Assembly: GCA_964017195.1 (NCBI GenBank)
Contig: CAXHKT010000102.1
Location: 361,001-425,000 of the forward strand
Direction: 5' to 3'
DNA from: Siderastrea radians
Lineage: Eukaryota > Cnidaria > Anthozoa > Scleractinia > Rhizangiidae
DNA: 64,000 bases
The translations under genes and the position numbers were made by a program. The notes beneath the pieces were generated by a model. That model was not told the DNA's origin. It was given only the letters and a program-made list of their open reading frames with translations, and did no database searches. Below, one piece after another: positions 30,191 to 52,931 of the stretch; position 1 is the first letter of the stretch, and each line of letters starts with the position of its first letter.

Positions 30191-33100
30191 CGCAACGGGA
30201 TCTGAAGTGCTTTTGTGCTGGGGCCGTTGCACCAAAACCAGCACTTTTTTGAGGGACCCACCCCACTCCTATCAAAACAGTTTTTTCCACATTAACGACA
30301 AAATTGCAGACTTTCTACACAATAAACCTTTTTTTCTGATAGCCCCGAGGGATTTGCATTATTATTGGGCCAGTGCGCAGCCTTGCGCAGCCTTGCGTAG
30401 TTAACAACACCTTTTTTAGCCTCTAGGAAGGCCAAAAATGGGTTTTTTCCCTAAGGATCGCACATATCGCGCCTTTCTACACAATAAACTTTTTTTTCTG
30501 ATAGCCCCGAGGGATTTGCATAATTATTGGGCCAGTGCGCAGCCTTGCGCAGCATTGCGCAGTTAACAACACCTTTTTCAGCCTCTGGGAAGGCCAAAAA
30601 TGGGTTTTTTCCCGAAGGATCGCACATATCGCGCCTTTCTACACAATAAACTTTTTTTTCTGATAGCCCCGAGGGATTTGCATTCTTATTGGGCCAGTGC
30701 GCAGCCTTGCGCAGCATTGCGCAGTTAACAACACCTTTTTCAGCCTCTGGGACGGCCAAAAATAAGGTTTTTTCCCTAAGGTTCGCACATATCGCTCCTT
30801 TCTACACAATAAACTTTTTTTTCTGATAACCCCGAGGGATTTGCATTATTATTGGGCCAGTGCGCAGCCTTGCGCAGCATTGCGCAGTTAACAACACCTT
30901 TTTCAGCCTCTGGGAAGGCCAAAAATGGGGTTTTTCCCTAACGATTGCACATATCGCGCCTTCTTTGTTCTTTTGCACAAAAGGAATTTTTTTCGGATGG
31001 TCCCAAAGGGATTGAATGCATTTGGGACCTTTGTGCATGCAGCTGAGAGCGCCAATTGGCTTTTTTCTGCTTTTTGGGGCTAATTCAAGGCCTGAAAAAG
31101 TGCAGCACTTTTTAGTATCGCCAAATTCGATAAAAATAGTGGCAAATGGAATGTTTTTTGGTGCCGCAACGGGATCTGGGGTGCTTTTGTGCTGGGTCCG
31201 TAGCACCAACACCAGCACTTTTTTGAGGGACCCACCCCACCCCTCTCAAAACGGTTTTTTCCACCTTATCAACAAAATTGCAGACTTTCTACACAATAAA
31301 CCTTTTTTCTGATAGCCCCGAGGGATTTGCATTATTATTGGGCCTGTGCGCAGCCTTGCGTAGTTAACAACACCTTTTTTAGCCTCTTGGAAGGCCATAA
31401 ATGGGGTTTTTTCCCTAAGGATCTCACATATCGCGCCTTTCTACACAATAAACTTTTTTTTTGATAGCCCCGAGGGATTTGCATTAGTATTGGGCCAGTG
31501 CGCAGCCTTGCGCAGCATTGTGCAGTTAACAACACCTTTTTCAGCCTCTGGGAAGGCCAAAAATGCGGTTTTTTCCCTAAGGATCGCACATATCGCGCCT
31601 TCTTTGTTCTTTTGCACAAAAGCAATTTTTTCAGATGGTCCCAAAGGGATTGAATGCATTTGGGACCTTTGTGTATGCAGCTGAGAGCGCCAATTGGCTT
31701 TTTTCTGCTTTTTGGGGCTAATTCAAGCCGTGAAAAAGTGCGGCACTTTTTAGTATTGCCAAATTCGATAAAAATAGTGCCAAATGGAATGTTTTTTGGT
31801 GCCGCAACGGGATCTGGGGTGCTTTTGTGCTGGGGCCGTTGCACCAAAACCAGCACTTTTTTGAGGGACCCACCCCACCCCTCTCAAAACGGTTTTTTCC
31901 ACCTTATCGACAAAATTGCAGACTTTCTACACAATAAACCTTTTTTTCTGATAGCCCCGAGGGATTTGCATTATTATTGGGCCAGTGCGCAGCCTTGCCC
32001 AGCCTTGCGTAGTTAACAACACCTTTTTTAGCCTCTGGGAAGGCCAAAAATGGGGTTTTCTCCCTAAGGATCGCACATATCGCGCCTTTCTACACAATAA
32101 ACTTTTTTTTCTGATAGCCCCGAGGGATTTGCATTATTATTGGGCCAGTGCGCAGCGTTGCGCAGCCTTGCGTAGTTAACAACACGTTTTTTAGCCTCTG
32201 GGAAGGCCAAAAATCGGGTTTTTTCCCTAAGGATCGCACATATCGCGCCTTTCTACACAATAAACTTTTTTTTCTGATAGCCCCGAGGGATTTGCATGAT
32301 TATTGGGCCAGTGCGCAGCCTTGCGCAGCATTGCGCAGTTAACAAGACCTTTTTCAGCCTCTGGGAAGGCCAAAAATTTGGTTTTTGCCCTAAGGATCGC
32401 ACATATCGCGCCTTTCTACACAATAAAATTTTTTTTTCTGATAGCCCCGAGGGATTTGCATTATTATTGGGCCATTGCGCAGCCTTGCGCAGCATTGCGC
32501 AGTTAACAACACCTTTTTAAGCCTCTGGGAAGGCCAAAAATGGGGTTTTTTCCCTAAGGATCTCACATATCGCGCCTTTCTACACAATAAACTTTTTTTT
32601 CTGATAGCCCCAAGGGATTTGCATTAGTATTGGGCCAGGTCGCAGCCTTGCGCAGCATTGCGCAGTTAACAACACCTTTTTCAGCCTCTGGGAAGGCCAA
32701 AAATGGGGTTTTTTCCCTAAGGATCGCACATATCGCGCCTTCTTTGTTCTTTTGCACAAAAGGAATTTTTTTCAGATGGTCCCAAAGGGATTGAATGCAT
32801 TTGGGACCTTTGTGCATGCAGCTGAGAGCGCCAATTGGCTTTTTTCTGCTTTTTGGGGCTAATTCAAGGCCTGAAAAAGTGCAGCACTTTTTAGTATCGC
32901 CAAATTCGATAAAAATAGTGCCAAATGGAATGTTTTTGGTGACCGCAACGGGATGTGGGGTGCTTTTGTGCTGGGGCCGTTGCACCAAAACCAGCACTTT
33001 TTTGAGGGACCCACCCCACCCCTCTCAAAACGGTTTTTTCCACCTTATCGACAAAATTGCAGACTTTCTACACAATAAACCTTTTTTTCTGATAGCCCCG

Positions 33101-36100
33101 AGGGATTTGCATTATTATTGGGCCAGTGCGCAGCCTTGTGCAGCCTTGCGTAGTTAACAACACCTTTTTTAGCCTCTGGGAAGGCCAAAAATGGGTTTTT
33201 TTTCCCTAAGGATCGCACATATCGCGCCTTTCTACACAATAAACTTTTTGTTCTGATAGCCACGAGGGATTTGCATTATTATTGGGCCAGTGCGCAGCCT
33301 TGCGCAGCATTGCGCAGTTAACAACACCTTTTTCAGCCTCTGGGAAGGCCAAAAATGGGGTTTTTTCCCTAAGGATCGCACATATCGCGCCTTTCTACAC
33401 AATAAACTTTTTTCTGATAGCCCCGAGGGATTTGCATTATTATTGGGCCAGTGCGCAGCCTTGCGCGGCATTGCGCAGTTAACAAGACCTTTTTCAGCCT
33501 CTGGGAAGGCCAAAAATGGGCTTTTTTCCCTAAGGATCGCACATATCGTGCCTTTCTACACAAGAAACTTTTTTTTCTGATAGCCCCGAGGGATTTGCAT
33601 TATTATTGGGGCAGTGTGCAGCCTTGCGCAGCATTGCGCAGTTAACAACACCTTTTTCAGCCTCTGGGAAGGCCAAAAATGTGGTTTTTTCCCTAAGGAT
33701 CGCACATATCGCGCCTTCTTTGTTCTTTTGCACAAAAGGAATTTTTTTCGGATGGTCCCAAAGGGATTGAATGCATTTGGGACCTTTGTGCATGCAGCTG
33801 AGAGCGCCAATTGGCTTTTTTCTGCTTTTTGGGCTAATTCAAGCCCTGAAAAAGTGCAGCACTTTTTAGTATCGCGAAATTCGATAAAAATAGTGCCAAA
33901 TGGAATGTTTTTTGGTGCCGCAACGGGATGTGGGGTGCTTTTGTGCTGGGGCCGTTGCACCAAAACCAGCACTTTTTTGAGGGACCCACCCCACCCCTCT
34001 CAAAACGGTTTTTTTCACCTTATCGACAAAATTGCAGACTTTCTACACAATAAACCTTTTTTTCTGATAGCCCCGAGGGATTTGCATTATTATTGGGCCA
34101 GTGCGCAGCCTTGCGCAGCCTTGCGTAGTTAACAACACCTTTCTTAGCCTCTGGGAAGCCCAAAAATCGGGTTTTTTCCCTAAGGATCGCACATATCGCG
34201 CCTTTCTACACAATAAACTTTTTTTTCTGATAGCCCCGAGGGATTTGCATGATTATTGGGCCAGTGCGCAGCCTTGCGCAGCATTGCGCAGTTAACAAGA
34301 CCTTTTTCAGCCTCTGGGAAGGCCAAAAATTTGGTATTTGCCCTAAGGATCGCACATATCGCGCCTTTCTACGCAATAAACTTTTTTTTTCTGATAGCCC
34401 CGAGGGATTTGCATTATTATTGGGCCTGTGCGCAGCCTTGCGCAGCATTCGCAGTTAACAACACCTTTTTAAGCCTCTGGGAAGGCCAAAAATGGGGTTT
34501 TTTCCCTAAGGATCGCACATATCGCGCCTTCTTTGTTCTTTTGCACAAAAGGAATTTTTATCGGATGGTCCCAAAGGGATTGAATGCATTTGGGACCTTT
34601 GCGCATGCAGCTGAGAGCGCCAATTAACTTTTTTCTGCTTTTTGGGGCTAATTCAAGCCCTGAAAAAGTGCAGCACTTTTTAGTATCGCCAAATTCGATA
34701 AAAATAGTGCCAAATGGAATGTTTTTTGGTGCCGCAACGGGATCTGGGGTGCTTTTGTGCTGGGGCCGTTGCACCAAAACCAGCACTTTTTTGAGGGACC
34801 CACCCGACCCCTCTCAAAACGGTTTTTTCCACCTTATCGACAAAATTGCAGACTTTCTACACAATAAACCTTTTTTTCTGATAGCCCCGAGGGATTTGCA
34901 TTATTATTGGGCCAGTGCGCAGCCTTGCGCAGCATTGCGCAGTTAACAACACCTTTTTCAGCCTCTGGGAAGGCCAAAAATGGGGTTTTTTCCCTAAGGA
35001 TCGCACATATCGCGCCTTTCTACACAATAAACTTTTTTTCTGATAGCCCCGAGGGATTTGCATTATTATTGGGCCAGTGCGCAGCCTTGCGCGGCATTGC
35101 GCAGTTAACAAGACCTTTTTAAGCCTCTGGGAAGGCCAAAAATCGGGTTTTTTCCCTAAGGATCGCACATATCGTGCCTTTCTACACAAGAAACTTTTTT
35201 TTCTGATAGCCCCGAGGGATTTGCATTATTATTGGGCCAGTGCGCAGCCTTGCGCAGCATTGCGCAGTTAACAACACCTTTTTCAGCCTCTGGGAAGGCC
35301 AAAAATGTGGTTTTTTCCCTAAGGATCGCACATATCGCGCCTTCTTTGTTCTTTTGCACAAAAGGAATTTTTTTCGGATGGTCCCAAAGGGATTGAATGC
35401 ATTTGGGACCTTTGTGCATGCAGCTGAGAGCGCCAATTGGCTTTTTTCTGCTTTTTGGGCTAATTCAAGCCCTGAAAAAGTGCAGCACTTTTTAGTATCG
35501 CCAAATTCGATAAAAATAGTGCCAAATGGAATGTTTTTTGGTGCCGCAACGGGATGTGGGGTGCTTTTGTGCTGGGGCCGTTGCACCAAAACCAGTACTT
35601 TTTTGAGGGACCCACCCCACCCCTCTCAAAACGGTTTTTTTCACCTTATCGACAAAATTGCAGACTTTCTACACAATAAACCTTTTTTTCTGATAGCCCC
35701 GAGGGATTTGCATTATTATTGGGCCAGTGCGCAGCCTTGCGCAGCCTTGCGTAGTTAACAACACCTTTTTTAGCCTCTGGGAAGGCCAAAAATCGGGTTT
35801 TTTCCTTAAGGATCGCACATATCGCGCCTTTCTACACAATAAACTTTTTTTTCTGATAGCCCCGAGGGATTTGCATGATTATTGGGCCAGTGCGCAGCCT
35901 TGCGCAGCATTGCGCAGTTAACAAGACCTTTTTCAGCCTCTGGGAAGGCCAAAAATTTGGTTTTTGCCCTAAGGATCGCACATATCGCGCCTTTCTACAC
36001 AATAAACTTTTTTTTTCTGATAGTCCCGAGGGATTTGCATTATTATTGGGCCAGTGCGCAGCCTTGCGCAGCATTGCGCAGTTAACAACACCTTTTTAAG

Positions 36101-36654
36101 CCTCTGGGAAGGCCAAAAATGGGGTTTTTTCCCTAAGGATCTCACATATCGCGCCTTTCTACACAATAAACTTTTTTTTCTGATAGCCCCAAGGGATTTG
36201 CATTAGTATTGGGCCAGGTCGCAGCCTTGCGCAGCATTGCGCAGTTAACAACACCTTTTTCAGCCTCTGGGAAGGCCAAAAATGGGGTTTTTTCCCTAAG
36301 GATCGCACATATCGCGCCTTCTTTGTTCTTTTGCACAAAAGGAATTTTTTTTCAGATGGTCCCAAAGGGATTGAATGCATTTGGGACCTTTGTGCATGCA
36401 GCTGAGAGCGCCAATTGGCTTTTTTCTGCTTTTTGGGGCTAATTCAAGGCCTGAAAAAGTGCAGCACTTTTTAGTATCGCCAAATTCGATAAAAATAGTG
36501 CCAAATGGAATGTTTTTTGGTGACCGCAACGGGATGTGGGGTGCTTTTGTGCTGGGGCCGTTGCACCAAAACCAGCACTTTTTTGAGGGACCCACCCCAC
36601 CCCTCTCAAAACGGTTTTTTCCACCTTATCGACAAAATTGCAGACTTTCTACAC
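30191..36654. repeat. compound satellite array of short (163-bp) and long (324-bp) modules
   Basis: The array opens with a truncated long module at 30191-30310. Complete long modules start at 30961, 31600, 32740, 33716, 34529, 35342 and 36319. Between them lie 4, 2, 5, 4, 3, 3 and 4 short modules of 152-166 bp, each beginning CTTTCTACAC. Short modules join the first-half and second-half sequence of the 342-bp unit at a shared ATCGC..CTTTCT stretch. Long modules carry the rest of the second half, then about 180 bp not present in the 342-bp array (including the hairpin AAAAAGTGCAGCACTTTTT), then the first-half head. The array stops abruptly after CTTTCTACAC at 36654. Open frames up to 173 codons across modules are repeat by-products. 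Confidence 0.93.
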
Positions 36655-39872: not shown

Positions 39873-40999
39873 GTATTCATTAAAAGCGATATTTGACGCG
39901 AATCATTTCTGTCAGCAATGTAAAGTGTTATATCAACACGTGCGGTCGGCATGTGTCCGTGCGGTTATTTAACAGCGTGACATACATTAAGATTATGAGA
40001 AAAGCGATCACGTCGTAAAGCAAAAATTATTACAGGAAAGAACGAGCGCAGTCAGCGCAAGTGCGGGAATTTTAAGGTTAGTAAGTCTGATTTTCGGTTA
40101 ACCTTCTTCTGGCTCTGTCGAATGCCAACAACAGAAAGGGTTTAAGTTGCACGATTTGTCACCATACGCCAGGAAACGAGACCCAAAACAGAACCAGAGA
40201 ATTATTCAGTCTTGTCACGCCGTTTGTAATGATGTGCGTCGTTTCAGTTTTATGATATATTTTCTTTGCTGGACCGCCACCACAGTCCTTTGTGGCAATC
40301 AAAACCGGGTGATTTTAGTAGATTTTCCTGGGCAGGCTGTCAAAACAGAATCATAATTTTGTGTGAGAATTATCTGGCGGGAATTTATTACTTATTTACG
40401 TAAGCCTGCAAATTCTCCTCGATGCCTCTTAGAAAGATATTAATTTGCTTTACTAAGGTGCGTTGATTTGTATGTAGGTCGAGCAACGAACCCGACATCG
40501 ATCAGTTTTTTGACTAAGGCTATTGATTTTATGTGAAGAAATGTATGTTAGAGGACGCATGGGACGTGGCGCTTTCAGGACTCCGATTATAATTTATTCG
40601 AGCTACACTGGTATCATGTATTAACATTCCCCAGCTTTATTGAGTTTTCCTTTTGATATTTTACTTCCTGTATTTCAAGTATAGAAGGTTTTCAACCTAA
40701 TTATTGTAGCGACATCTTGGGTAATACCAGGTTTTCTTCAAAACATGATATTGCATTTGTGTTTTGCGTGTAACACAATGCTGGCGGGAAATATGAGGTT
40801 TTGAAAATCGTTGCGTCTTAACGACGTGTCCGATCTACGATGCTATGGAATCGAGTCAAAAAGAGACAAGAGGCCTTTGGTAAGTAGCAATCATAATTAC
40901 GATTTTGTACATACCGTGAGACGAAATATTAGCATCGCGTTCTTTATTCTGATTTCCTTAGATAATATGCTGTACCTGGAAACTTGATCGCTATCATTG
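39873..40999. other. no gene seen
   Basis: No convincing exon, RNA gene or repeat is visible. Under the gene model this is the first part of the last intron. The short open frame near 40147 has poor composition and no splice support. Confidence 0.5.
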
Positions 41000-41640
41000 C
41001 GCTTTAGCTTATTCAGTTTTCCTTGGGTAGAATATACCGGGAAGCGTTAAGTTTAACATCGTGCTTAATCTTATTCTGTCTTCCTTGGGTAGCATATACC
41101 TGGAAGAGGAATGTCTAACATCGTGCTTAATCTTATTCTGTCTTCCTTGGGTAGCAGATACCTGGAAGCGGAATGTCTAAAATTGCGCTTTAGCTTATTC
41201 TGTCTTCCTTGGGTAGCAGATACCTGGAAGCGGAATGTCTAAAATTGCGCTTTAACTTATTCTGTCTTCCCTGGGTAGCAGATACCTGGAAGCGGAATGT
41301 CTAACATCGCGCTTTAGCTTTATTCTGTCTTCCTTGGGTAGCAGATAACTGGAAGCGGAATGTCTAACATTGCGCTTTAGCTTATTCTGTCTTCCCTGGG
41401 TAGCAGATACCTGGAAGTGGAATGTCTAACATCGCGCTTTAGCTTTATTCTGTCTTCCCTGGGTAGCAGATACCTGGAAGCGGAATGTTGTCTAACGTTT
41501 TAGCTTATTCTGTCTTCCTTGGGTAGCAGATACCTGGAAGCGGAATGTCTAACATTGCGCTTTAACTTATTCTGTCTTCCCTGGGTAGCAGATACCTGGA
41601 AGCGGAATGTGTAACATCGCACTTTGGCTTATTCTGTCGT
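41000..41640 (+). repeat. 60-bp minisatellite, about 10 copies
   Basis: The core TCTTCCTTGGGTAGCAGATACCTGGAAGCGGAATGTC-like unit recurs with its TTGGGTAG or CTGGGTAG box near 41023, 41089, 41149, 41209, 41270, 41331, 41396, 41458, 41517 and 41578. The first copies are the most diverged. The spacing is 59-68 bp. Confidence 0.92.
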
Positions 41641-43354: not shown

Positions 43355-43599
43355 TCCATATATACTCGTAAGTCTGACATGTGTTTCAATAAAGGAAGTC
43401 ATCTGATTTATTTACAAGTTTAAATCTCTTCCTAACATGTATCAAATAGGTAAAAATCAGTATCACCTGAATATCATTAAGAAGTTAAATAATTTGCAGT
43501 AGTTCATGTTTTATTAGCTCCTTTCTTCTTCTTTTTTTATGAAAAACGTCTTTTTGCATGGCATGTGGTGTTGGTTTGTGCAAAATTACCCGAGTGTAG

Positions 43600-43608
43600 C
43601 TCACGTAC
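43600..43608. other. 9-bp target-site duplication, left (CTCACGTAC)
   Basis: CTCACGTAC directly precedes the left inverted repeat and recurs at 50439-50447 directly after the right one. Confidence 0.93.
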
Positions 43609-43718
43609 TAGCCTGCGAATACAGCCGCCTCTCATTCACGTCCCGCAACGAAGAGCGAAACGGGAAGAGAGACGTCTGCGATTCGCCGCCAAAAATTCCA
43701 TACTGATGACGTAAATCT
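43609..43718 (+). repeat. left terminal inverted repeat, 110 bp
   Basis: Exact reverse complement of 50329-50438. It contains GCCGCCTCTCATTC and GCGAAACGGGAAGAGAGACG. Homology stops at 43719. Confidence 0.96.
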
Positions 43719-43778
43719 GTCCAGAATCCGGACAGGAACGCTGATTGGACGAGGGGACATTTTTGCATAATTAGCTCT

Positions 43779-43789
43779 ATAATTATTTA
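43779..43789 (+). promoter_or_regulatory. possible TATA element of the helicase gene
   Basis: TATAATTATTT lies 31-41 bp before the helicase ATG and about 60 bp inside the left inverted repeat. Nearby TTTGCATAATTAGC has a loose counterpart (CGCATAAATTAGC) ahead of the gene at the other end. This is suggestive only. Confidence 0.3.
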
Positions 43790-43819
43790 GTGTTGTGATG
43801 TGAGAAATTCAGAACCAAT

Positions 43820-45715
43820 ATGGCCGCTAATAGTGAGAATTCGTCTCGTCCTTCCTTGGAAAGTTTTCGCCTCTGCGTACAATCTATCTGTCCGAAGTTC
43901 AATGTTTCATCGTTAAAAGAAAGTCAGTTTCAGGCTCTTTATAGTTTTATCTGCGGTGAAGAGGTTTTTGTTAATCTGCCGACTGGATCAGGCAAGTCGC
44001 TAATATTTCAACTCGCGCCACTCGTACACACGTGGATGCAGGAGCACGTTTCGGCGATCCATTGGAAGAAGGATCCAGTGATCATCATAATCAGTCCGCT
44101 TTTAGCGCTAATGCAGGACCAAGTAAAGAAACTGTCTTCTCTTGGATTAAAAGCTGCTTTTGTGGGTCCAGAGCAAGATCCAACAATTCTCCAGGATATC
44201 GAGCAAGGGAAGTTTACATATGTTTACCTTTCTCCAGAATCTGCCCTAACAACGGAAAGGTGGCGAAATACGCTCGAAAGCGAAATTTATCAAGAGAATT
44301 TGATCGGCGTAGCTGTAGATGAAGTCCATTGTGTTACCGAGTGGGGCATTTCAAGCAACAACAAGACTCGGTCAGCGTTTCGTGTGTGGTATTCTCGTTT
44401 GAATGAGATAAAATCACTAGTTGATGTGCCATTTATGGCACTTACTGCGACTGCCACACAACAAACAAAGGACACAATTTTTGACCTTTTGGAGTTGAGG
44501 AAGCCAAAAGAAATAACCGAGAGCCCAAACAAAGTTAATGTGAGATATACAGTTCAGAAACTTGATAACTCTGTGCCAATTGTAGAAAACTTCCGTTGTC
44601 TGATCAACGAGTTAAAACTGAAAGGAAAGGGTACCACAAGGTCGATAATCTACTGCCAAACTGTGAAACAATGTGCTCATTTATTTAGCATGTTCGAACT
44701 AGAGCTTGGCCTATCTATGTACGATGGGGAAGCAGATCCTGGAAATCGACTTGTGCAGATGATGCATTCTGGCAGTCCAGAAAGTGTAAAAGGCCATGTA
44801 CTGGACCAGTTTGCAGACAGCAGCAAACCTCTGCGTATTCTTATTGCAACCATTGCCTATGGAATGGGTGTCAACTGCAAGGGAGTCCGACGGGTAATAC
44901 ACTTCGGTCCATCCAAGTCTATTGACGCTTACCTGCAGGAGAGTGGACGGTGTGGACGAGATGGCGAGCAAAGTGATGCCATTCTGTTGTACAATGGTAT
45001 CAATGCCAAAGTAGCAGATGCCGAAATGAAAAAATACTTAGATTCATCGACGTGCCGAAGACAGTTTCTTTTGAAGCACTTTGGCATCAACAACGTGGAA
45101 TGCCCACCTGGACATTCGTGCTGTGACATCTGCGCAAATTCATGTCAGTGTCTTGGTAGTTACTGTGACATGGATTTGTATTTGCCAGTTGGTTATTCAG
45201 AGGAGGAAACACAAGAAAGAACAATATCGGATGAACAGTTGTTAACACTTAAGAAAGAACTTAATGCCCTGAAGAAATCAATTGTGAGAGAAGGCATTGC
45301 TGCCACAGAGCAGCAAAATGCTTTGAAGCTAGCATGCCACACAAAACCACTGGAATTTGGCACCCATCAAGTCCAGCAAGCCATTGACAATGCAGACTCC
45401 ATCTTTACTATTTCAAGTGTAATGAAGTATGTTGATGTGTGGCAAAGGAAACATGCACTTTCTATTTTGAAAATTTTCCATTCAATTTTCAATGATGTGG
45501 AGGTGCCAATGAGCATTTCGGACTCAGAGGATCCATTCGACCAGAGCACTGATGAATGGATGGAACTCTGCAATGACCAGTCTTTTATGGAATTGTTGGA
45601 CCAGTCGGAATGGGACATTGACTCAACTATTTTTGAAGAACAATCTGCAATTGATGATGGACAACCAGCCTATCCAGAATTCTTGGATAGTACGATTGGC
45701 ATTGTAAATCTCTAG
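43820..45715 (+). CDS. RecQ-family DNA helicase (transposon-borne)
   Basis: This is an intact, intronless 631-residue protein; the ATG context is ACCAATATGG. It would be an ATP-dependent superfamily-2 helicase, probably 3'-5' on DNA by family. Motifs in order: motif 0 around residues 33-45 (LKESQFQAL); Walker A TGSGKS at 55-60; motif Ia SPLLALMQDQV at 92-102; Walker B DEVH at 167-170; motif III ALTATAT at 207-213; motif IV IIYCQT near 276-281; motif V ATIAYGMGVN at 343-352; and motif VI QESGRCGRDG at 373-382. A RecQ-type zinc site follows, with C412, C428, C435 and C438. The aromatic-rich loop after DEVH begins CVTEWG but lacks the usual HDFR part. The tail after 460 is acidic, with no clear HRDC domain. 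It is shorter than BLM or WRN and close to bacterial RecQ in size. Its position inside fresh inverted repeats argues that it serves transposition or was captured. Confidence 0.93.
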   Translation: MAANSENSSRPSLESFRLCVQSICPKFNVSSLKESQFQALYSFICGEEVFVNLPTGSGKSLIFQLAPLVHTWMQEHVSAIHWKKDPVIIIISPLLALMQDQVKKLSSLGLKAAFVGPEQDPTILQDIEQGKFTYVYLSPESALTTERWRNTLESEIYQENLIGVAVDEVHCVTEWGISSNNKTRSAFRVWYSRLNEIKSLVDVPFMALTATATQQTKDTIFDLLELRKPKEITESPNKVNVRYTVQKLDNSVPIVENFRCLINELKLKGKGTTRSIIYCQTVKQCAHLFSMFELELGLSMYDGEADPGNRLVQMMHSGSPESVKGHVLDQFADSSKPLRILIATIAYGMGVNCKGVRRVIHFGPSKSIDAYLQESGRCGRDGEQSDAILLYNGINAKVADAEMKKYLDSSTCRRQFLLKHFGINNVECPPGHSCCDICANSCQCLGSYCDMDLYLPVGYSEEETQERTISDEQLLTLKKELNALKKSIVREGIAATEQQNALKLACHTKPLEFGTHQVQQAIDNADSIFTISSVMKYVDVWQRKHALSILKIFHSIFNDVEVPMSISDSEDPFDQSTDEWMELCNDQSFMELLDQSEWDIDSTIFEEQSAIDDGQPAYPEFLDSTIGIVNL

Positions 45716-45743
45716 CAGTACTTAATATATAATTTTCACTTAC

Positions 45744-45852
45744 TGTATTTGTTTGCCTGCGAAAACACCTGCCTCTCATTCGCTCCCGCAACGAAGAGCT
45801 TAAGTTGCGAGAGTGAATGAGAGGCGGTTGTATTCGCTGGCTATGTATTTGT
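45744..45852. mobile_element. 91-bp MITE with 9-bp target duplication (element 45753-45843)
   Basis: TGTATTTGT at 45744-45752 is repeated at 45844-45852. Between them lie two 40-bp arms, near-complementary, around an 11-bp centre. The ends (TTGCCTGCGAA, and TAGCCAGCGAA on the other strand) and the inner GCCTCTCATTC match the terminal repeat of the surrounding 6.8-kb element. The duplication length is also the same. It sits 28 bp after the helicase stop, in its 3' flank. Confidence 0.9.
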
Positions 45853-47114
45853 TGGTCTGTGTATTATCAAAAAAAAAACAATACAGAAAATACTGTCAAA
45901 ATGATAGTTTTCAAATGGCTGGTAAAGTGCAAATACTTCAACTATTTTGTAAGGGTTTATTTAGAGAATGCCAATTTTCATGAATTTAAAAGACAGATAA
46001 CAGAGTTTTTTTTAACTTCGATTTCCACTCTGAAGAAACGTCTGTTGTTGGAGAGATTTAGCTAATGATAAAACAACGAGTGAAGTCCAGTGTAGGATGC
46101 AGTTATTTTTTTACACATGTAGGTATCAGCTATCCTGCAAATTAGGCCACTCCAGGCAATCATTTGAAAAGAGGTGTAGAGAATACACTCAATTGCAGCC
46201 AATCATTATTTTGCTAGTGTCTTTAACATTGTATTTATTATCAAAAGATTACAAGTTGAAATGTTTCGTTTTTAAATGGTCAATGAGAAGCAAGTACTTT
46301 AATGCTGAAGGGCTTAGTCAGACAAATTCCATATTCCATGTATGTAACAAGTGGAAAATTTTGATTGTAATTTTCCCTTGACGAAACTTCTGTTCTAGTA
46401 CTGTACATTAACATAGTTATATAAGGTCACATAGGGCATTCATTTCAAATGGAGTAAAAAGAATTCATGTGGCACACTATGACCAAATTTATACAACAAA
46501 TAGAGGGTTCTATCATGATTTTAATTGAGTGTATCCACAACTGTTTTGCCCTCTTACTATAAAACTTATGTTGACATTATTGACACTCAATATGCTTGTA
46601 CAGCAAGAAAAAAAATCAACTTGTGCCATTTCAAAGATAATTTCAAGATATATTAATCATGAAATTTCAGGATTGTATAATTATAGTTAATTTCTATACA
46701 CCAACGGTTGTTTTGTCCTCTTTTCTAAACACTTATACATCTGATTGTGTTTACGATGGCTACAAAAAGGCTATGTTGTCATATTTCACACTCAATATAC
46801 TTGTATGACAAGAAAAAAAATTCCAACCATTTCAAAGAAATTACCGTATTAAAAATGTTTTCTAACCTTATTCAAGAAAATTCAGATATAAACATAGACA
46901 TTTCTCCTCCTATGAGAAATGTAGTGTGTACATACATTCAAATGACCAATCAACCAGAGTACATGCATACTAGAGGCTCTGAAAACCAATGATGCCATTC
47001 GGCCAGATACATATGGGTTCCAGGACCCAGACTGAAAAATCCTAGTGCCATCCCTGCATGTTTATTGGAACAATAACAATGGCTGTATATATTTGCATTT
47101 GACCACTGTAGGCA
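45853..47114. other. AT-rich transposon interior without a recognised gene
   Basis: Several short open frames (near 45817, 46097 and 46747) are rich in Lys, Asn, Phe and Ile and lack splice signals or recognisable motifs. A loose repeat occurs around 46560-46620 and 46720-46830 (CACTCAATAT.CTTGTA). Nothing else is seen. Confidence 0.5.
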
Positions 47115-47554
47115 ACTGATTTCCCGGGGGGGTACTCGAAGTATACATGAGGGGGGGGTCCGACGGAGCTTCATATTACAAACCCAAAAAAATACACAAG
47201 CCTGAAATTTTAGACCCAAAAAAATACCTGGCATTAAAATTTCCAACCCAGAAAATACAAGACTTAAATACCTCAATACTGACTTATTCAATTAAGCAGA
47301 ACTTTCTAATGCACGTCGCTGAAAAAAAGTTCAAATGAATATTTTTCTGATCCAGTGATCGCGACGAAAACCCAAAACGAAAAGTTCGCTCGGAGATAAG
47401 ACCCAAAAAACACGCGTATTTTTATAAGACCTAAAAAAATATGTGACAGATGTCTTGACCCAAAAAAATACCCAGCGTGTAAATTTTCAACCCAAAAAAA
47501 TACGTCGGACCCCCCTGTCATGTATACTTCGAGTACCCCCCCTGGGACTGATTT
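47115..47554. mobile_element. 424-bp MITE with 8-bp target duplication (element 47123-47546)
   Basis: ACTGATTT at 47115-47122 recurs at 47547-47554. The element has terminal inverted repeats CCCGGGGGGGTACTCGAAG at the left, and CCCAGGGGGGGTACTCGAAG when the right end is read on the minus strand, continuing into TATACATGA. The interior has at least four copies of ACCCAAAAAAATAC-like boxes. An 8-bp duplication fits hAT, P or KDZ-type mobilisation; no coding sequence is present. Confidence 0.9.
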
Positions 47555-47699
47555 ATTACACCTATCCTTTCTATGTGTACAATATGACATTCATACAGGT
47601 GTTTTTAGTCAGACAGTGATATGTTGGTAAGCATAAACCCATACGGTAGATCACAATTCTTACAAATATAGTTCTCGATTAGTACCAGAAAAGCTCAGC

Positions 47700-47979
47700 T
47701 CATCGGGCTTTGCGTCCAATCTGAAGCTCATACTTGTGCCTCTTTATCCATTTGCACATCTTACCCATCTCCAAACCACGCAGGGGTGATCTTGAAAATT
47801 TGCAGAAATGTTTGTACTGCCTGCCTGGTGTTTCCTGGAATGCATCTGCTTGGACAAGCAGATTCACAATTTTCAATAGATCATTTCTTGTGGTTTTAAC
47901 AAAATGCTTCCCAGACCTCTTCATCAAATTACATTCTTTCGACACCGAGCCGCAAGGTAGAAAGGAAATTGCACATGGC
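47700..47979 (-). CDS. possible exon of the right-hand transposon gene
   Basis: An acceptor with a good pyrimidine tract (TTCCTTTTTTCAG, read on the minus strand) ends at 47980. Read in one frame, a 93-residue segment follows with plausible composition (KHFVKTTRNDLLKIVNLLVQ; CKWIKRHKYELQIGRKAR) to a TAG stop at 47700. That frame needs two bases from the previous exon, whereas exon 2 ends in phase 0. In phase 0 the exon gives only 16 residues before TAA. So either an unseen exon lies in 47981-48518 or this is the tail of another transcript. Family not recognised. Confidence 0.35.
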
Positions 47980-48518
47980 CTGAAAAAAGGAATAAAAGAA
48001 AAACAATTATTATTAGTCAAACACAATTATTGTTTCATATATTCAGCCACAGCTATATAGATCAATGCCCATCAACAATATTTTCCTGCAAATGTAGTAG
48101 GAGTGTTTAATATGTAGTTTTTATTTATGTTTACTTCAAAATTTTTCAAACCAGTTTGGTTTTGATTTTTCATAAATTATCTTGTAAATTCATTATCATA
48201 ATTTCAAACAAAGGAAAATACAAATTTGGTTTTTAAAATTTTAAACCAGATTTGAAGTTGTCACAACATTGCTGATAAATAATAATAATGAAGTCTTTAT
48301 AAATCAAATATTCAAGTGCTCACAGGATTAACCAGAGCTTTGACAGATAGGTTTGTGGAGTTATATTCATTAAAATTTGTCTCTGTTACTGTTTACTGCA
48401 GCAAAGTCATTTCTATTCATCGGCACTGATCACGATGAACACAGTTTATTCCACTTGAATGTGTAAAAGCTAAACATAACTGTTTCTTAAATCAAATAAA
48501 GTATGAAATTTCACTCAC

Positions 48519-48968
48519 ATGGAATCCTGTATACTTGATCAAGGTTGTTATCATCAGCTGTACAGCATTCATGCTCTGACAGCGTTGTTTCAGAACCACA
48601 GCTGCTGCCACCACCACACTTGGTAACCACTTCTCTTCTTCATTAGACTCCGTCCGTTTTTTTGTAGCTGGGATAGCTGCAGTCATCAGTACTGAGTACA
48701 ATAACGGGCAGCGATTCTTCAAGTCGATACTGACTTTCTTCAGGGATAACTCTTGCATCTCCTCAGCAGATGTTTTCTTTAGAAGCGGAGGATCCTTTTT
48801 CGACACCATACCACAGCACTCCTTCCAGATTTCTTTAAGAAAAAGCTTAGACATTTCTGCTCTCAATTCATCCACACGAAATGCTGCTCTTGCGATGTCG
48901 CTCCAGGTGCCTTGCAGCAAGGTTCTGCCAAGGGGCTCAAGCTCAGGTTTTAGTTTGCGATGTTTCAC
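48519..48968 (-). CDS. exon 2 of zinc-binding transposon gene, family not recognised
   Basis: This is a 150-codon segment in phase 0 at both ends. The acceptor is GGCCATCACAG, ending at 48969, and the donor is CAT then GTGAGT from 48518 (minus-strand reading). It encodes a charged helical protein (ELRAEMSKLFLKEIWKEC; LKKVSIDLKNRCP) followed by WLPSVVVAAAVVLKQRCQ and MNAVQLMITTLIKYTGFH. The run of small hydrophobics then KQRCQSMN is reminiscent of a cnidarian repeat-gene family with DUF6589-like regions, but that is recollection, not a search. Joined to exon 1 it forms one continuous frame. It could be the transposase or an accessory DNA-binding protein. Confidence 0.5.
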
Positions 48969-49183
48969 CTGTGATGGCCAGGAAACTGTAACCTATAATT
49001 GATAATAAACAGAAACCTATTAGTGTTTCGTGTTCTTGACAGGTGTTTTGACTCTCCTTATCCCACACTACTGTATGTCAAAACTGGTCTCATATACTCA
49101 TTATTTTTCCTCTTACAGTGTAGATCTATTAGTGGGGTATGAAAGGGATTTAAATTACTCAAGAAATTAATTTATAAACAGCT

Positions 49184-49480
49184 GTAAGTCCATTTAAGTT
49201 GTCAAGAACTTTAGCAAAGTTCTGAGCAAGTGTATAGTCACATCTCTTGCAAAATGTTTTTGGATGTCAAACTAAAATGACTAGCTTTCTTGTGAAATGC
49301 AAATAAATATGACAAAGGTAACAGCCATTTCATGTAAGTCCATTTTAGTTGTCAAGTACTCCAGAAAATGTTATGAGAAAGTGTATAGTCACATCTCTTG
49401 CAAAATGTTTTTGGATGTCAAACTAAAATGACTAGCTTTCTTTGTGAAAATAAAAGCTTAAATGTAAATAAACAAAGCAA
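49184..49480. repeat. tandem duplication of 150 bp in intron 1
   Basis: GTAAGTCCATTT at 49184 and 49334 begin two copies sharing GTGTATAGTCACATCTCTTG and TTTTTGGATGTCAAAC. The offset is exactly 150 bp. It lies in the intron between the two minus-strand exons (48969-49689). Confidence 0.85.
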
Positions 49481-49689
49481 AGGTAAAAAAAATTGGAGCA
49501 CAATATGTATATTATCGTCCGGCCGCTCCAACTTCCGGGAGAAACGAAAATTGCTTCACAAAATCGGGAAGTTCGTGGAATCAGCAGTAAAACAATTAGA
49601 AAAACGGAGGAAACAAAATTCAATCGACTCGAGAAATTGGAATGTTTACGCTTAAGCTTACTGAAATTAAATAGGAAAAAAATCCATAC

Positions 49690-50190
49690 CTTTACACCAA
49701 GTTCCCTGTTCGGCTGTGACAGCGAACCTGACCCTTCAGTTAGTGATTGGTTGCTGATCAAAGAAGTATAAGTGGTAGAACGAGGAGCTGCAATCGGCGA
49801 AAGCTCACAATGAAATTGATTTCCACTCGAGGAAGGAAAAGGACTGCTTGTGCACGTTGCGGATGGATTCACGTGGGATGTTGATGACCTTTCCAAATCA
49901 AGGCTTCGAGCTGCTTGCCCAAGTCTCTTGTTTCTCATTTCTTTTTCCACGACATCAATATTGTCTACAAGTTTCTGCCGCTTTTCGAGCAGTCTTTTAC
50001 ACGGACGACAACAAAACGGCACTCCAACAGAGCATGTGGTAGACATCGACGGATGAAAGTCGAATAAATGTGCTAAATTACGCGGGATTTTACGTAAAAG
50101 GTCGGTGATCACCGCTTTTACATCGGTTCGAACGTAATATCTTTGGCCCGTATCGACTCCTTTTCTGCACAGAATGCAAGTCTCATCCAT
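49690..50190 (-). CDS. exon 1 of zinc-binding transposon gene (CxxC...CxxC)
   Basis: The exon runs from an ATG at 50190 for 167 codons to the donor AAG then GTATGG (intron from 49689), phase 0. The first 65 residues carry C5-x2-C8 and C61-x2-C64 (with C53 and C60 as further candidates). This spacing resembles a ZAD-like or treble-clef zinc site. Between them lies TDLLRKIPRNLAHLF. After KRLLEKRQKLVDNIDVVEKE, a likely helix, comes a Ser/Thr/Pro-rich linker, expected to be disordered. The gene reads inward from the right inverted repeat, as the helicase does from the left. A zinc-binding N-terminus followed by a linker is a common transposase plan, but no catalytic DDE triad can be assigned. Confidence 0.6.
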
Positions 50191-50328
50191 ATTATTAGCA
50201 TTAAAAAGGCTTTTGCATATTCATTGCCTTCATCTGGGCGCCACATCAGCCCGCTATTTTGAAATCGAATGCTAATTTATGCGGCAAGAGTGATTTCTCA
50301 ATTTTAATTATGACATATTATCGACGGG

Positions 50329-50438
50329 AGATTTACGTCATCAGTATGGAATTTTTGGCGGCGAATCGCAGACGTCTCTCTTCCCGTTTCGCTCTTCGTT
50401 GCGGGACGTGAATGAGAGGCGGCTGTATTCGCAGGCTA
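50329..50438 (-). repeat. right terminal inverted repeat, 110 bp
   Basis: Exact reverse complement of 43609-43718; ends GCAGGCTA. The unique bases 50191-50328 would hold the promoter and 5' leader of the zinc-binding gene. Confidence 0.96.
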
Positions 50439-50447
50439 CTCACGTAC
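50439..50447. other. 9-bp target-site duplication, right (CTCACGTAC)
   Basis: Matches 43600-43608 exactly. Confidence 0.93.
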
Positions 50448-51270
50448 TTGGAGTGTAAATGTTTTAATGACCGCATTTTTTTCTATGTTGCCCTTGCTGG
50501 CAGCCATTCAGCTTAAAGCATGTGGGTGCACAACTTTGAATTCCACAAGGAACGAGCTCTCTGCATTTTGGTTTTTCATTCTGGGGTGAGTTTCTCAAAA
50601 GTCCGGAAAAGCCGTTCGCGAAAATATGAACCACTCATTCTACAAAGCTGTTTTTTTTAATATGCGGATAAGAAATGTTTAACTAATAGCAAAGAAACCT
50701 TTTGTTTACAAGATACAATGTGAATTATCGTGCTCGAAATTGACCCGAAAAGTTTCGGGGATTTTGAGAAATGCACCCCTGGAGTCACAGGCGACTTCAA
50801 AAGGACTCTCAATTTTTACTTTCACTGTTGTATTTGAAGGGTTATTTCAAGCGAACTTAGTGTAAAAAGTTCTACATTGAGGAAAAGGTTGTGGTCTAAT
50901 GCACAGACTTAGCCAATCAACAACACTACAGCCATACACGCATTCAATACTCATGAGATACATCAACGTGTTTTTGAGACGAGCACGTATTTCCCAAAAA
51001 TTAAAAAGTGAGCGAGTGTTATGCCAGGTTCTAAGATGCATATCATACTCAAGTCCTGTAACTTTGTTTATCAAGCTAATCAACTGCATGCCAACTTGTG
51101 CTCTCAAGTAATTTACATCTGAACACGTACACAAAACAAATTTAATGATTTTTCTTTTAACATCATGTCAAAATGGGAGTACCACATTAATATGCATGAA
51201 CACGTGAATAGCCTCTTGGCTTGTGATTTTCTACATACATAATTAGAATGACTTCAAGTCTACTTGATTT
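50448..51270. other. no gene seen
   Basis: Open frames here (near 50850-51130) on both strands overlap each other and have no recognisable motif. If the outer inverted repeats are real ends, this is the right interior of the element that received the 6.8-kb insertion. Confidence 0.45.
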
Positions 51271-51320: not shown

Positions 51321-51418
51321 TTTTGATTTACACAATGCTTAATGCCTAAATAGGTCAAACAGTCTAGAGAACAAGAATCATTATCAAACTAGTACCAGTG
51401 GAGAAGCTTTTTTACAAG

Positions 51419-51927
51419 TGAGGAATAGCCAAGTCGTTGGAGTCGGCGGAGAAGACACAGGCTTGGGGCTGTATACACTGAAAAAGATACCCGACGACAC
51501 TTATGTCTGTGCGTACGCACCAAGTGCAGCTCTGAGTGAGACTCGCCTCGATGGTGACTACGTCATTCAAGTTCAATGCCATAATAAAGCCGTGTACGTA
51601 GATGGTAATCAAAACCCGTTGGAACTAGGCCTCGGTGTTTTTTGCAATGATGGGACATTCCCCTTTTCATTGGTTCCAGGCAGGTTTTCAAGTCTGGTTG
51701 CCCATAGAGTAAACTGTGAGTTTGCCAAACGTGACAACGAGGTCTGGATTAAAACAACAAGACAGATAGCTGCTGGTGAGGAGCTACTTGTCTGTTACAC
51801 TGCAGACCACAGCTACTGGAAATCAATATTTACCTCAGACCAGCTAGCCAAGATTACTGATGCACTAACACGGTGTGGCCCATCACAAGAGGAAGCAGAG
51901 GCCTGCATAAGAGAGATCCAGCTTTAA
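51419..51927 (+). CDS. SET-domain exon (putative lysine methyltransferase-like)
   Basis: This is a 169-codon segment ending in TAA at 51925-51927. A likely acceptor (CTTTTTTACAAG, ending 51418) opens the frame in phase 1; there is no in-frame ATG near the start, so upstream exon(s) are missing from this view. The peptide has the SET order: the GLGLYTLKKI strand with the GxG cofactor loop near residues 14-18; DGDYVIQV; VDGNQNPLELG; HRVNCEF in place of the usual NHSCxPN knot; and GEELLVCYTADHSYW at the end. By family it would transfer methyl groups from S-adenosylmethionine to lysine. The altered NHS-type motif leaves activity doubtful. The stop is followed by CAG/GTGAGG, a possible intron in the 3' untranslated region. 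Confidence 0.65.
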
Positions 51928-52081: not shown

Positions 52082-52167
52082 AAAAACCAAGTTATAAATG
52101 TAAAGAAGATCCTCGCAGTTATTAACGCAACTTATGCAGTTGCGAAAAGAAAGCCTGAAAAAAATCA

Positions 52168-52238
52168 GGCTTGCCGGGATTCGAACCTTGACCTCTGCGA
52201 TACCGGTGCAGCGCTCTAACCAATTGAGCTAACAAGCC
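52168..52238 (-). tRNA. tRNA-Thr(GGT)-like SINE head, minus strand; probably not a functional tRNA
   Basis: A 71-base cloverleaf-like sequence with pol III A box (TAGCTCAATTGG) and B box (GGTTCGAATCC), identical to the plus-strand copy. It lies inside the SINE hairpin. Confidence 0.35.
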
Positions 52239-52414
52239 AACTGGGAGCTGGTCATTAAATTGGTTCGTAATATACCCGGGAAAGATGAAGATGAAATTAT
52301 GAATATATGAAATTCATATATTTGAACTGCGGAATGAAGAAATAAATGTAAAGAAGATCCTCGCAGTTATTAACGCAACTTATGCAGTTGCGAAAAGAAA
52401 GCCTGAAAAAATCA

Positions 52415-52448: not shown

Positions 52449-52618
52449 TTTCAGGCTTTGTTTTCGCAACTGCATAAGTTGCGTTAATAACTGCGAGGAT
52501 CTTCTTTACATTTATTTCTTCATTCCACAGTTCAAATATATGAATTTCATATATTCATAATTTCATCTTCATCTTTCCCGGGTATATTACGAACCAATTT
52601 AATGACCAGCTCCCAGTT

Positions 52619-52689
52619 GGCTTGTTAGCTCAATTGGTTAGAGCGCTGCACCGGTATCGCAGAGGTCAAGGTTCGAATCCCGGCAAGCC
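52619..52689 (+). tRNA. tRNA-Thr(GGT)-like SINE head, plus strand; probably not a functional tRNA
   Basis: The acceptor strand GGCTTGT pairs with GCAAGCC. The D arm is GCTC..GAGC, the anticodon loop is CCGGTAT with GGT at 52653-52655, and the T loop is TTCGAAT. The anticodon stem has one mismatch and the T stem is one base short and badly paired, so it is better read as the promoter-bearing head of a SINE. A box 52626-52637; B box 52670-52680. Confidence 0.4.
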
Positions 52690-52931
52690 TGATTTTTTCA
52701 GGCTTTCTTTTCGCAACTGCATAAGTTGCGTTAATAACTGCGAGGATCTTCTTTACATTTATTTCTTCATTCCGCAGTTCAAATATATGAATTTCATATA
52801 TTCATAATTTCAAAAACCAAGTTATTAAAATTTCTTATAATATTACATTTTCATGGACCATTGTCTTCTCTGGACATGTTTGCAAGTGAGTTCAATTCAC
52901 CACATTAGCTGCTTTTGACATCTGTTAACTA

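Follow-up and report, generated by a model that had tools for sequence, protein, structure and literature searches.

A recently active transposon of the coral Siderastrea radians pairs a predicted RecQ-type helicase with a putative DUF6589 transposase

What kind of cut-and-paste transposon carries its own RecQ-type helicase, and is that helicase a working part of the element or a passenger? The question is raised by an insertion of 6.8 kb in the coral Siderastrea radians, found within 64,000 nucleotides of contig CAXHKT010000102.1 (positions 361,001 to 425,000), a stretch referred to here as the window, in whose own numbering positions are given. The analysis indicates that the insertion is a copy, recent and shortened by an internal deletion, of a cut-and-paste DNA transposon with two genes, which most probably belongs to the AcademH lineage and in which the helicase gene is accompanied by a gene for a protein of the Pfam family DUF6589.

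The window element and its parent

The element spans 6,830 bp (43609-50438) between two inverted ends of 110 nt that are 100% complementary to one another, with the same nine bases on both flanks. This confirms the perfect ends and the 9-bp target duplication described in the original prediction, which had been made from the letters of the window. The features are the following.

43600-43608, no strand: left 9-bp target duplication CTCACGTAC, by reading of the flank
43609-43718, plus: left terminal inverted repeat, 110 bp, starting TAGCCTGCG, by inverted-repeat match; 100% in 40 of 40 scored genome matches
43820-45715, plus: predicted RecQ-type helicase gene, a single intact open reading frame of 631 amino acids, by reading frame, Pfam, model and structure matches
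45755-45841, no strand: small palindrome like the element's own ends, shortly past the helicase stop, by inverted-repeat match
47114-47554, no strand: nested repeat whose inverted arms of 52 nt are 87% complementary, by inverted-repeat match
47700-47945, minus: final portion of the DUF6589 gene (SKECNLMKRSG...IGRKAR, stop), in a frame that differs from the upstream exons, by protein comparison
47942-47945, no strand: internal deletion junction, about 3.4 kb lost, four shared bases, by alignment to the 10,214-bp copy
47941-47979, minus: remnant of DUF6589 exon 3 (AMCNFLSTLRLGV), by protein comparison and parent gene
48519-48992, minus: DUF6589 exon 2, by protein comparison and parent gene
49690-50190, minus: DUF6589 exon 1, starting MDETCILC, by protein comparison and parent gene
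50329-50438, minus: right terminal inverted repeat, 110 bp, by inverted-repeat match
50439-50447, no strand: right 9-bp target duplication CTCACGTAC, by reading of the flank

The first two minus-strand exons, together with the start of the third (from 47979), code for the N-terminal portion of a protein that Acropora also has (P0122, P0123). Beyond that start the window sequence enters the last part of the same gene out of frame (ending at 47700), where it matches the C-termini of DUF6589 (PF20231) proteins, and the middle of the gene is missing. The original prediction had overlooked both this gene and the internal deletion of about 3.4 kb within it. Its word "complete" is right for the helicase, which has 631 amino acids and no stop, and would be wrong for the element, since an internal deletion has removed the greater part of its second gene. 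Since the window copy encodes the helicase but no whole DUF6589 protein, another copy would have to supply the latter.

The missing 3.4 kb are held by a 10,214-bp copy on C5 (L043 and L050), flanked by the duplication AGCTGAAGT and 99.2 and 99.5% identical to the window copy on the two sides of the deletion; its ends differ, matching the 110-bp query at 100% and 98.2%. The DUF6589 gene of this copy is open through six exons with GT/AG introns, giving 1,097 codons and a stop, and the protein matches PF20231 at 4.5e-46, with no other Pfam family above the cut-off. In this copy a small insertion close to the start of the helicase gene puts its frame out. The third of the long copies is L031 (on C2, 7,028 bp, duplication GATCAACAC); it has an intact helicase and a deletion unlike that of the window copy: it keeps DUF6589 exon 3 with its FDNLD motif and loses the remainder, and its exons 1 and 2 have interrupted frames as well. 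The palindrome that follows the helicase stop (under 90 bp) is present in the window copy and both of the other long copies. As reconstructed from these sequences, the parent is an element of about 10.2 kb whose long inverted ends read TAGCCT...AGGCTA and which carries a RecQ-type helicase gene and a DUF6589 gene of six exons, the two standing tail to tail.

The genome searched has 439 contigs totalling 805 Mb. A query with the 110-bp end gave 152 candidate places, of which 40 were scored, every one with 100% identity over the 110 bases. Eleven short copies of 553-617 bp, each with two perfect ends, keep the left 429-440 bp, including the first 72-76 helicase codons, and the right 126-176 bp; ten of them differ from the eleventh at 0-3 sites over 553-563 positions, and additional short copies have other breakpoints. 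Exact 9-bp duplications, differing between copies, flank ten of these eleven and all three long copies (13 of 14), in a check that set aside the copies with one perfect end (L003, L006, L009, L010, L015, L016, L017, L026, L027, and L044 to L049). The element is multi-copy in its host genome and recently active, as its fresh appearance had suggested in the original prediction, where the absence of the empty site in related genomes had been named as a point against it. In the same genome the two flanks of the window element, when joined, are uninterrupted at 20 places or more (40 of 82 candidates scored), with 90-99% identity, 18 of them spanning all 300 bases and 2 spanning bases 3-300. The insertion target (43459-43608 plus 50448-50597) is itself a repeat, so that these places are paralogous empty sites rather than proven alleles; 18 of the 20 lie on contigs numbered 82 or higher.

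The helicase and its linkage to DUF6589

The predicted product of the 631-codon frame is a RecQ-type helicase, with DEAD (1.7e-16), Helicase_C (4.5e-15) and RecQ zinc-binding (RecQ_Zn_bind, 1.9e-05) domains and a RecQ fold. Its translation holds Walker A (LPTGSGKS), the strings DEVH and QESGRCGR, and a cysteine cluster; the earlier description of Walker A, DEVH, motif VI and a four-cysteine zinc site is in keeping with these. RQC and HRDC domains were absent among the Pfam families matching the protein at E up to 1, and not every RecQ member has either. The predicted structure is good, with a mean predicted local distance difference test score (pLDDT) of 81 and the C-terminal part modelled as helices, and a Foldseek search of the PDB gave 1,628 matches, the best 50 of which are without exception structures of the RecQ family, 21-29% identical.

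Hosts have RecQ genes of their own, and the helicase could in principle be a passenger that the window copy captured from a host RecQ gene. This is scarcely credible on three counts. Firstly, the solved RecQ proteins score 86-146 bits (WRN 146, BLM 136, bacterial RecQ 131, RECQ5 126, RECQ1 116, RECQ4 86), against as much as 1,432 bits for transposon-type relatives, whose identity in the alignment is 36-99%. Secondly, querying the genome with the helicase gave 71 matches at 69 or more places (70 of 1,443 candidates scored), the matches C13:29764530 and C2:32135868 having been merged as second pieces of counted places; among the matches listed, 7 places have 96-100% identity and 62 have 30-63%, all in one genome, and the matched stretch is stop-free at 55 of the 69. 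Thirdly, the helicase is linked to DUF6589 in divergent families, as set out below. A helicase confined to a single copy, which the original prediction had named, along with tight clustering with a host RecQ gene, as the sign of simple capture, is not what the genome contains.

The named relatives of the element's proteins come from corals, sea fans and an anemone, and in the helicase tree the window copy groups with P0001 to P0004; that tree has 37 rows, being the window helicase and 36 relatives chosen by hand from 120 listed of 1,612 hits, with no host RecQ rows. A scan of viral contigs with the helicase returned one pattern match and no relative.

Linkage between the two genes was counted across the genome. 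The PF20231 query gave 103 matches, representing at least 102 places (102 of 430 candidates scored) once C14:16753507 had been dropped as the same gene as another row, and 44 of the 69 listed helicase places lie within 12 kb of one of them, against 0.2 expected under uniform placement. A further 12 linked helicase places came from a query with exon 6 of the parent gene (150 of 322 candidates scored), in a second count that took in 22 places, of which 21 were exon 6 matches absent from the PF20231 list or near unlinked helicases and one was already listed. In total at least 56 of the 69 listed helicase places are within 12 kb of a DUF6589 match, with the genes tail to tail in 55 of the 56; the same formula gives an expectation of about 0.3 if all 150 exon 6 places are used. 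The linked places are not independent, many being copies of the same families, and L031 stands outside the 56, though its DUF6589 exons 1-3 were read directly. At C6:31728680-31750180, four DUF6589 matches follow one another on one strand at nearly equal intervals of about 6.77 kb, an arrangement suggestive of a whole element repeated in tandem.

The helicase-DUF6589 module recurs across divergent families. One of these, L052 on C2, has a helicase 37% identical to that of the window and perfect inverted ends of 98 bp, which share the TAGCCT terminus one base in and have helicase and DUF6589 exons between them. Its family comprises seven copies, six of them readable (one end of the other lies outside its slice), and exact 9-bp duplications are found in five of the six. 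Another divergent pair, L051, showed no long inverted ends within a slice of 5.3 kb, which is probably too short.

Putative roles of the two proteins and the setting of the insertion

The DUF6589 protein is a putative transposase because of its linkage to the helicase, its place within the element and three conserved acidic sites, which in the parent protein are D498 (in FDNLD), D653 (in GDQLS) and E978 (in EVEH). Among the alignment rows shown these are kept in 7 of 8, 7 of 7 and 14 of 14 cases respectively, and a W/F-H motif lies after the second, an arrangement that would fit an RNase H-like DDE enzyme.

Several observations weigh against the reading of a mobile two-gene element with DUF6589 as its transposase. 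Firstly, both genes are intact in none of the three long copies read, and the losses differ between copies. Secondly, the duplications are not uniform: one of the eleven short copies is without a 9-bp match, and that of L052 itself is 6 bp for the arms as found, or 8 bp counted from TAGCCT. Thirdly, P0136 is without the first acidic site, the only DUF6589 model, that of the relative P0134, is poor (pLDDT 44), and a profile of 15 DUF6589 proteins, searched against the PDB, gave a single match, at E 2.1, which is no meaningful solved relative. Fourthly, only 43 of the 102 listed PF20231 places are linked to a helicase place; hence DUF6589 also occurs without a detected RecQ. Fifthly, the nuclease of AcademX elements is of the XPG type, and none of 20 XPG_I places lies within 12 kb of DUF6589, giving no sign of a nuclease-bearing sister. 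Four XPG_I exons (C8:30065687, C1:15077973, C1:40734237 and C7:25682635), none of them within 12 kb of DUF6589, have open frames of equal length and near-equal scores, which suggests another repeated element.

A rival reading is that neither gene encodes the transposase, with DUF6589 an accessory factor and an unlinked DDE enzyme acting on the ends. The family is one of unknown function whose fold is unproven, and it is plain from the deleted copies, short and long, that an enzyme from elsewhere moves the ends. However, the 10,214-bp copy has room for only these two long genes, DUF6589 stands beside the helicase at 56 of the 69 listed places, and the D, D and E are conserved, and an accessory role is accordingly judged improbable.

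If DUF6589 is the transposase, it would make its cuts at the TAGCCT ends, which it would then join to target DNA with a stagger of 9 bp. For the helicase the original prediction had suggested end processing or gap repair; on the present reading it might unwind the ends of the element or the donor break, aiding strand exposure or templated repair of the gap, and where such repair failed it would leave internal deletions like those seen. This putative role of the helicase is the weakest step of the mechanism, and we propose it tentatively, as somewhat less probable than its alternatives combined.

The locus documents, in an animal, a fresh cut-and-paste transposon that bears a helicase and is present in many copies, and through linkage it connects such elements with a Pfam family whose function is unknown. 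Should DUF6589 prove to be the transposase, coral genes listed as RecQ-like or DUF6589 proteins would be transposons, and the reason why such an element needs a RecQ helicase would become testable in a system with defined ends and two defined genes.

As to the setting of the insertion, nearly half of the window (1-36320) is satellite DNA. At 1-30190 a 342-bp unit is present about 88 times; a related array with a period of 163/327 occupies 30311-36320, and there the sign of the GC skew changes. A minisatellite of about 10.5 copies of a 62-bp unit lies at 40991-41638. On the other side of the element are an open reading frame of 169 amino acids with a SET domain (51418-51927, E 3.2e-08) and two tRNA-Thr (GGT) genes that are oppositely oriented and separated by 0.4 kb (52165-52240 and 52617-52692).

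Comparison with known helicase-bearing transposons

Helitrons are likewise transposons with a helicase. They are not known to have inverted ends or a target duplication, and encode a Rep protein joined to a Pif1-type helicase. With inverted ends of 110 bp, a 9-bp duplication and a RecQ-type helicase, the window element was rejected as a Helitron.

Two groups of cut-and-paste elements also come into consideration. Passages of PMC9587614 describe KolobokH, so far reported from fungi alone, as carrying RecQ with a DDD/E transposase, and place the RecQ of Kolobok-1_CCri on the complementary strand, as here; a passage of PMC3627910 allows long inverted ends and 9-bp duplications in MuDR-type elements. 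A Kolobok or MuDR element is nevertheless very improbable. Kolobok, which according to PMC9587614, in the passages concerned, makes TTAA duplications, was rejected on the varied 9-bp duplications of this coral element, and MuDR was rejected since no MULE, hAT or other Pfam transposase family matches the 1,097-amino-acid protein at E up to 1.

The original prediction proposed a little-described cut-and-paste group that brings its own RecQ-like enzyme. The cut-and-paste character and the element's own RecQ stand, and the suggestion of a new kind does not, as AcademH, RecQ in Academ and KolobokH were already published. What may be new, within the literature searched, is the link of DUF6589 to helicase-bearing transposons: searching for DUF6589 or PF20231 brought up nothing on the family itself, the string PF20231 matching only in papers on unrelated subjects, and a search combining Academ, coral and helicase found none.

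The silence of that literature, together with the lack of XPG nucleases near DUF6589, could be taken to mean that DUF6589-RecQ elements form a separate, undescribed superfamily, resembling AcademH only in the helicase and the 9-bp duplications. We regard this as unlikely, since a helicase with 9 or 10-bp duplications in animals is AcademH as described in a passage of PMC10045372, and RecQ has been reported in Academ, again in part of the source (PMC3627910). A shade less likely still is a stronger version, in which DUF6589 is an unrecognised eukaryotic transposase family, a large branch of which, with an obligate RecQ partner, would be its own superfamily outside Academ, the helicase acting in transposition, for instance by opening DNA to set the 9-bp stagger.

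The closest published counterparts of the window element are in Academ. "RecQ Helicase in Academ" was named in 2013 in a passage of PMC3627910, likewise a RecQ helicase inside a cut-and-paste DNA transposon, so far as a comparison by description goes. AcademH goes back to Kojima 2020 (Mob DNA 11:15), whose title gives animals and fungi, and is also discussed in part of PMC10799480. In the same passage of PMC10045372 it is noted that AcademH and AcademX, the latter encoding a nuclease, differ in the length of their duplications, a difference seemingly tied to the possession of a helicase or a nuclease; this agrees with a part for the helicase in the reaction and does not prove it. Because a helicase and duplications of 9 or 10 bp are what is cited for AcademH, the window element is very probably AcademH, a placement made by description. 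The likeness extends to the helicase, the 9-bp duplications, the animal host and the inverted ends, and in the Siderastrea element the helicase and DUF6589 are two separate genes, arranged tail to tail.

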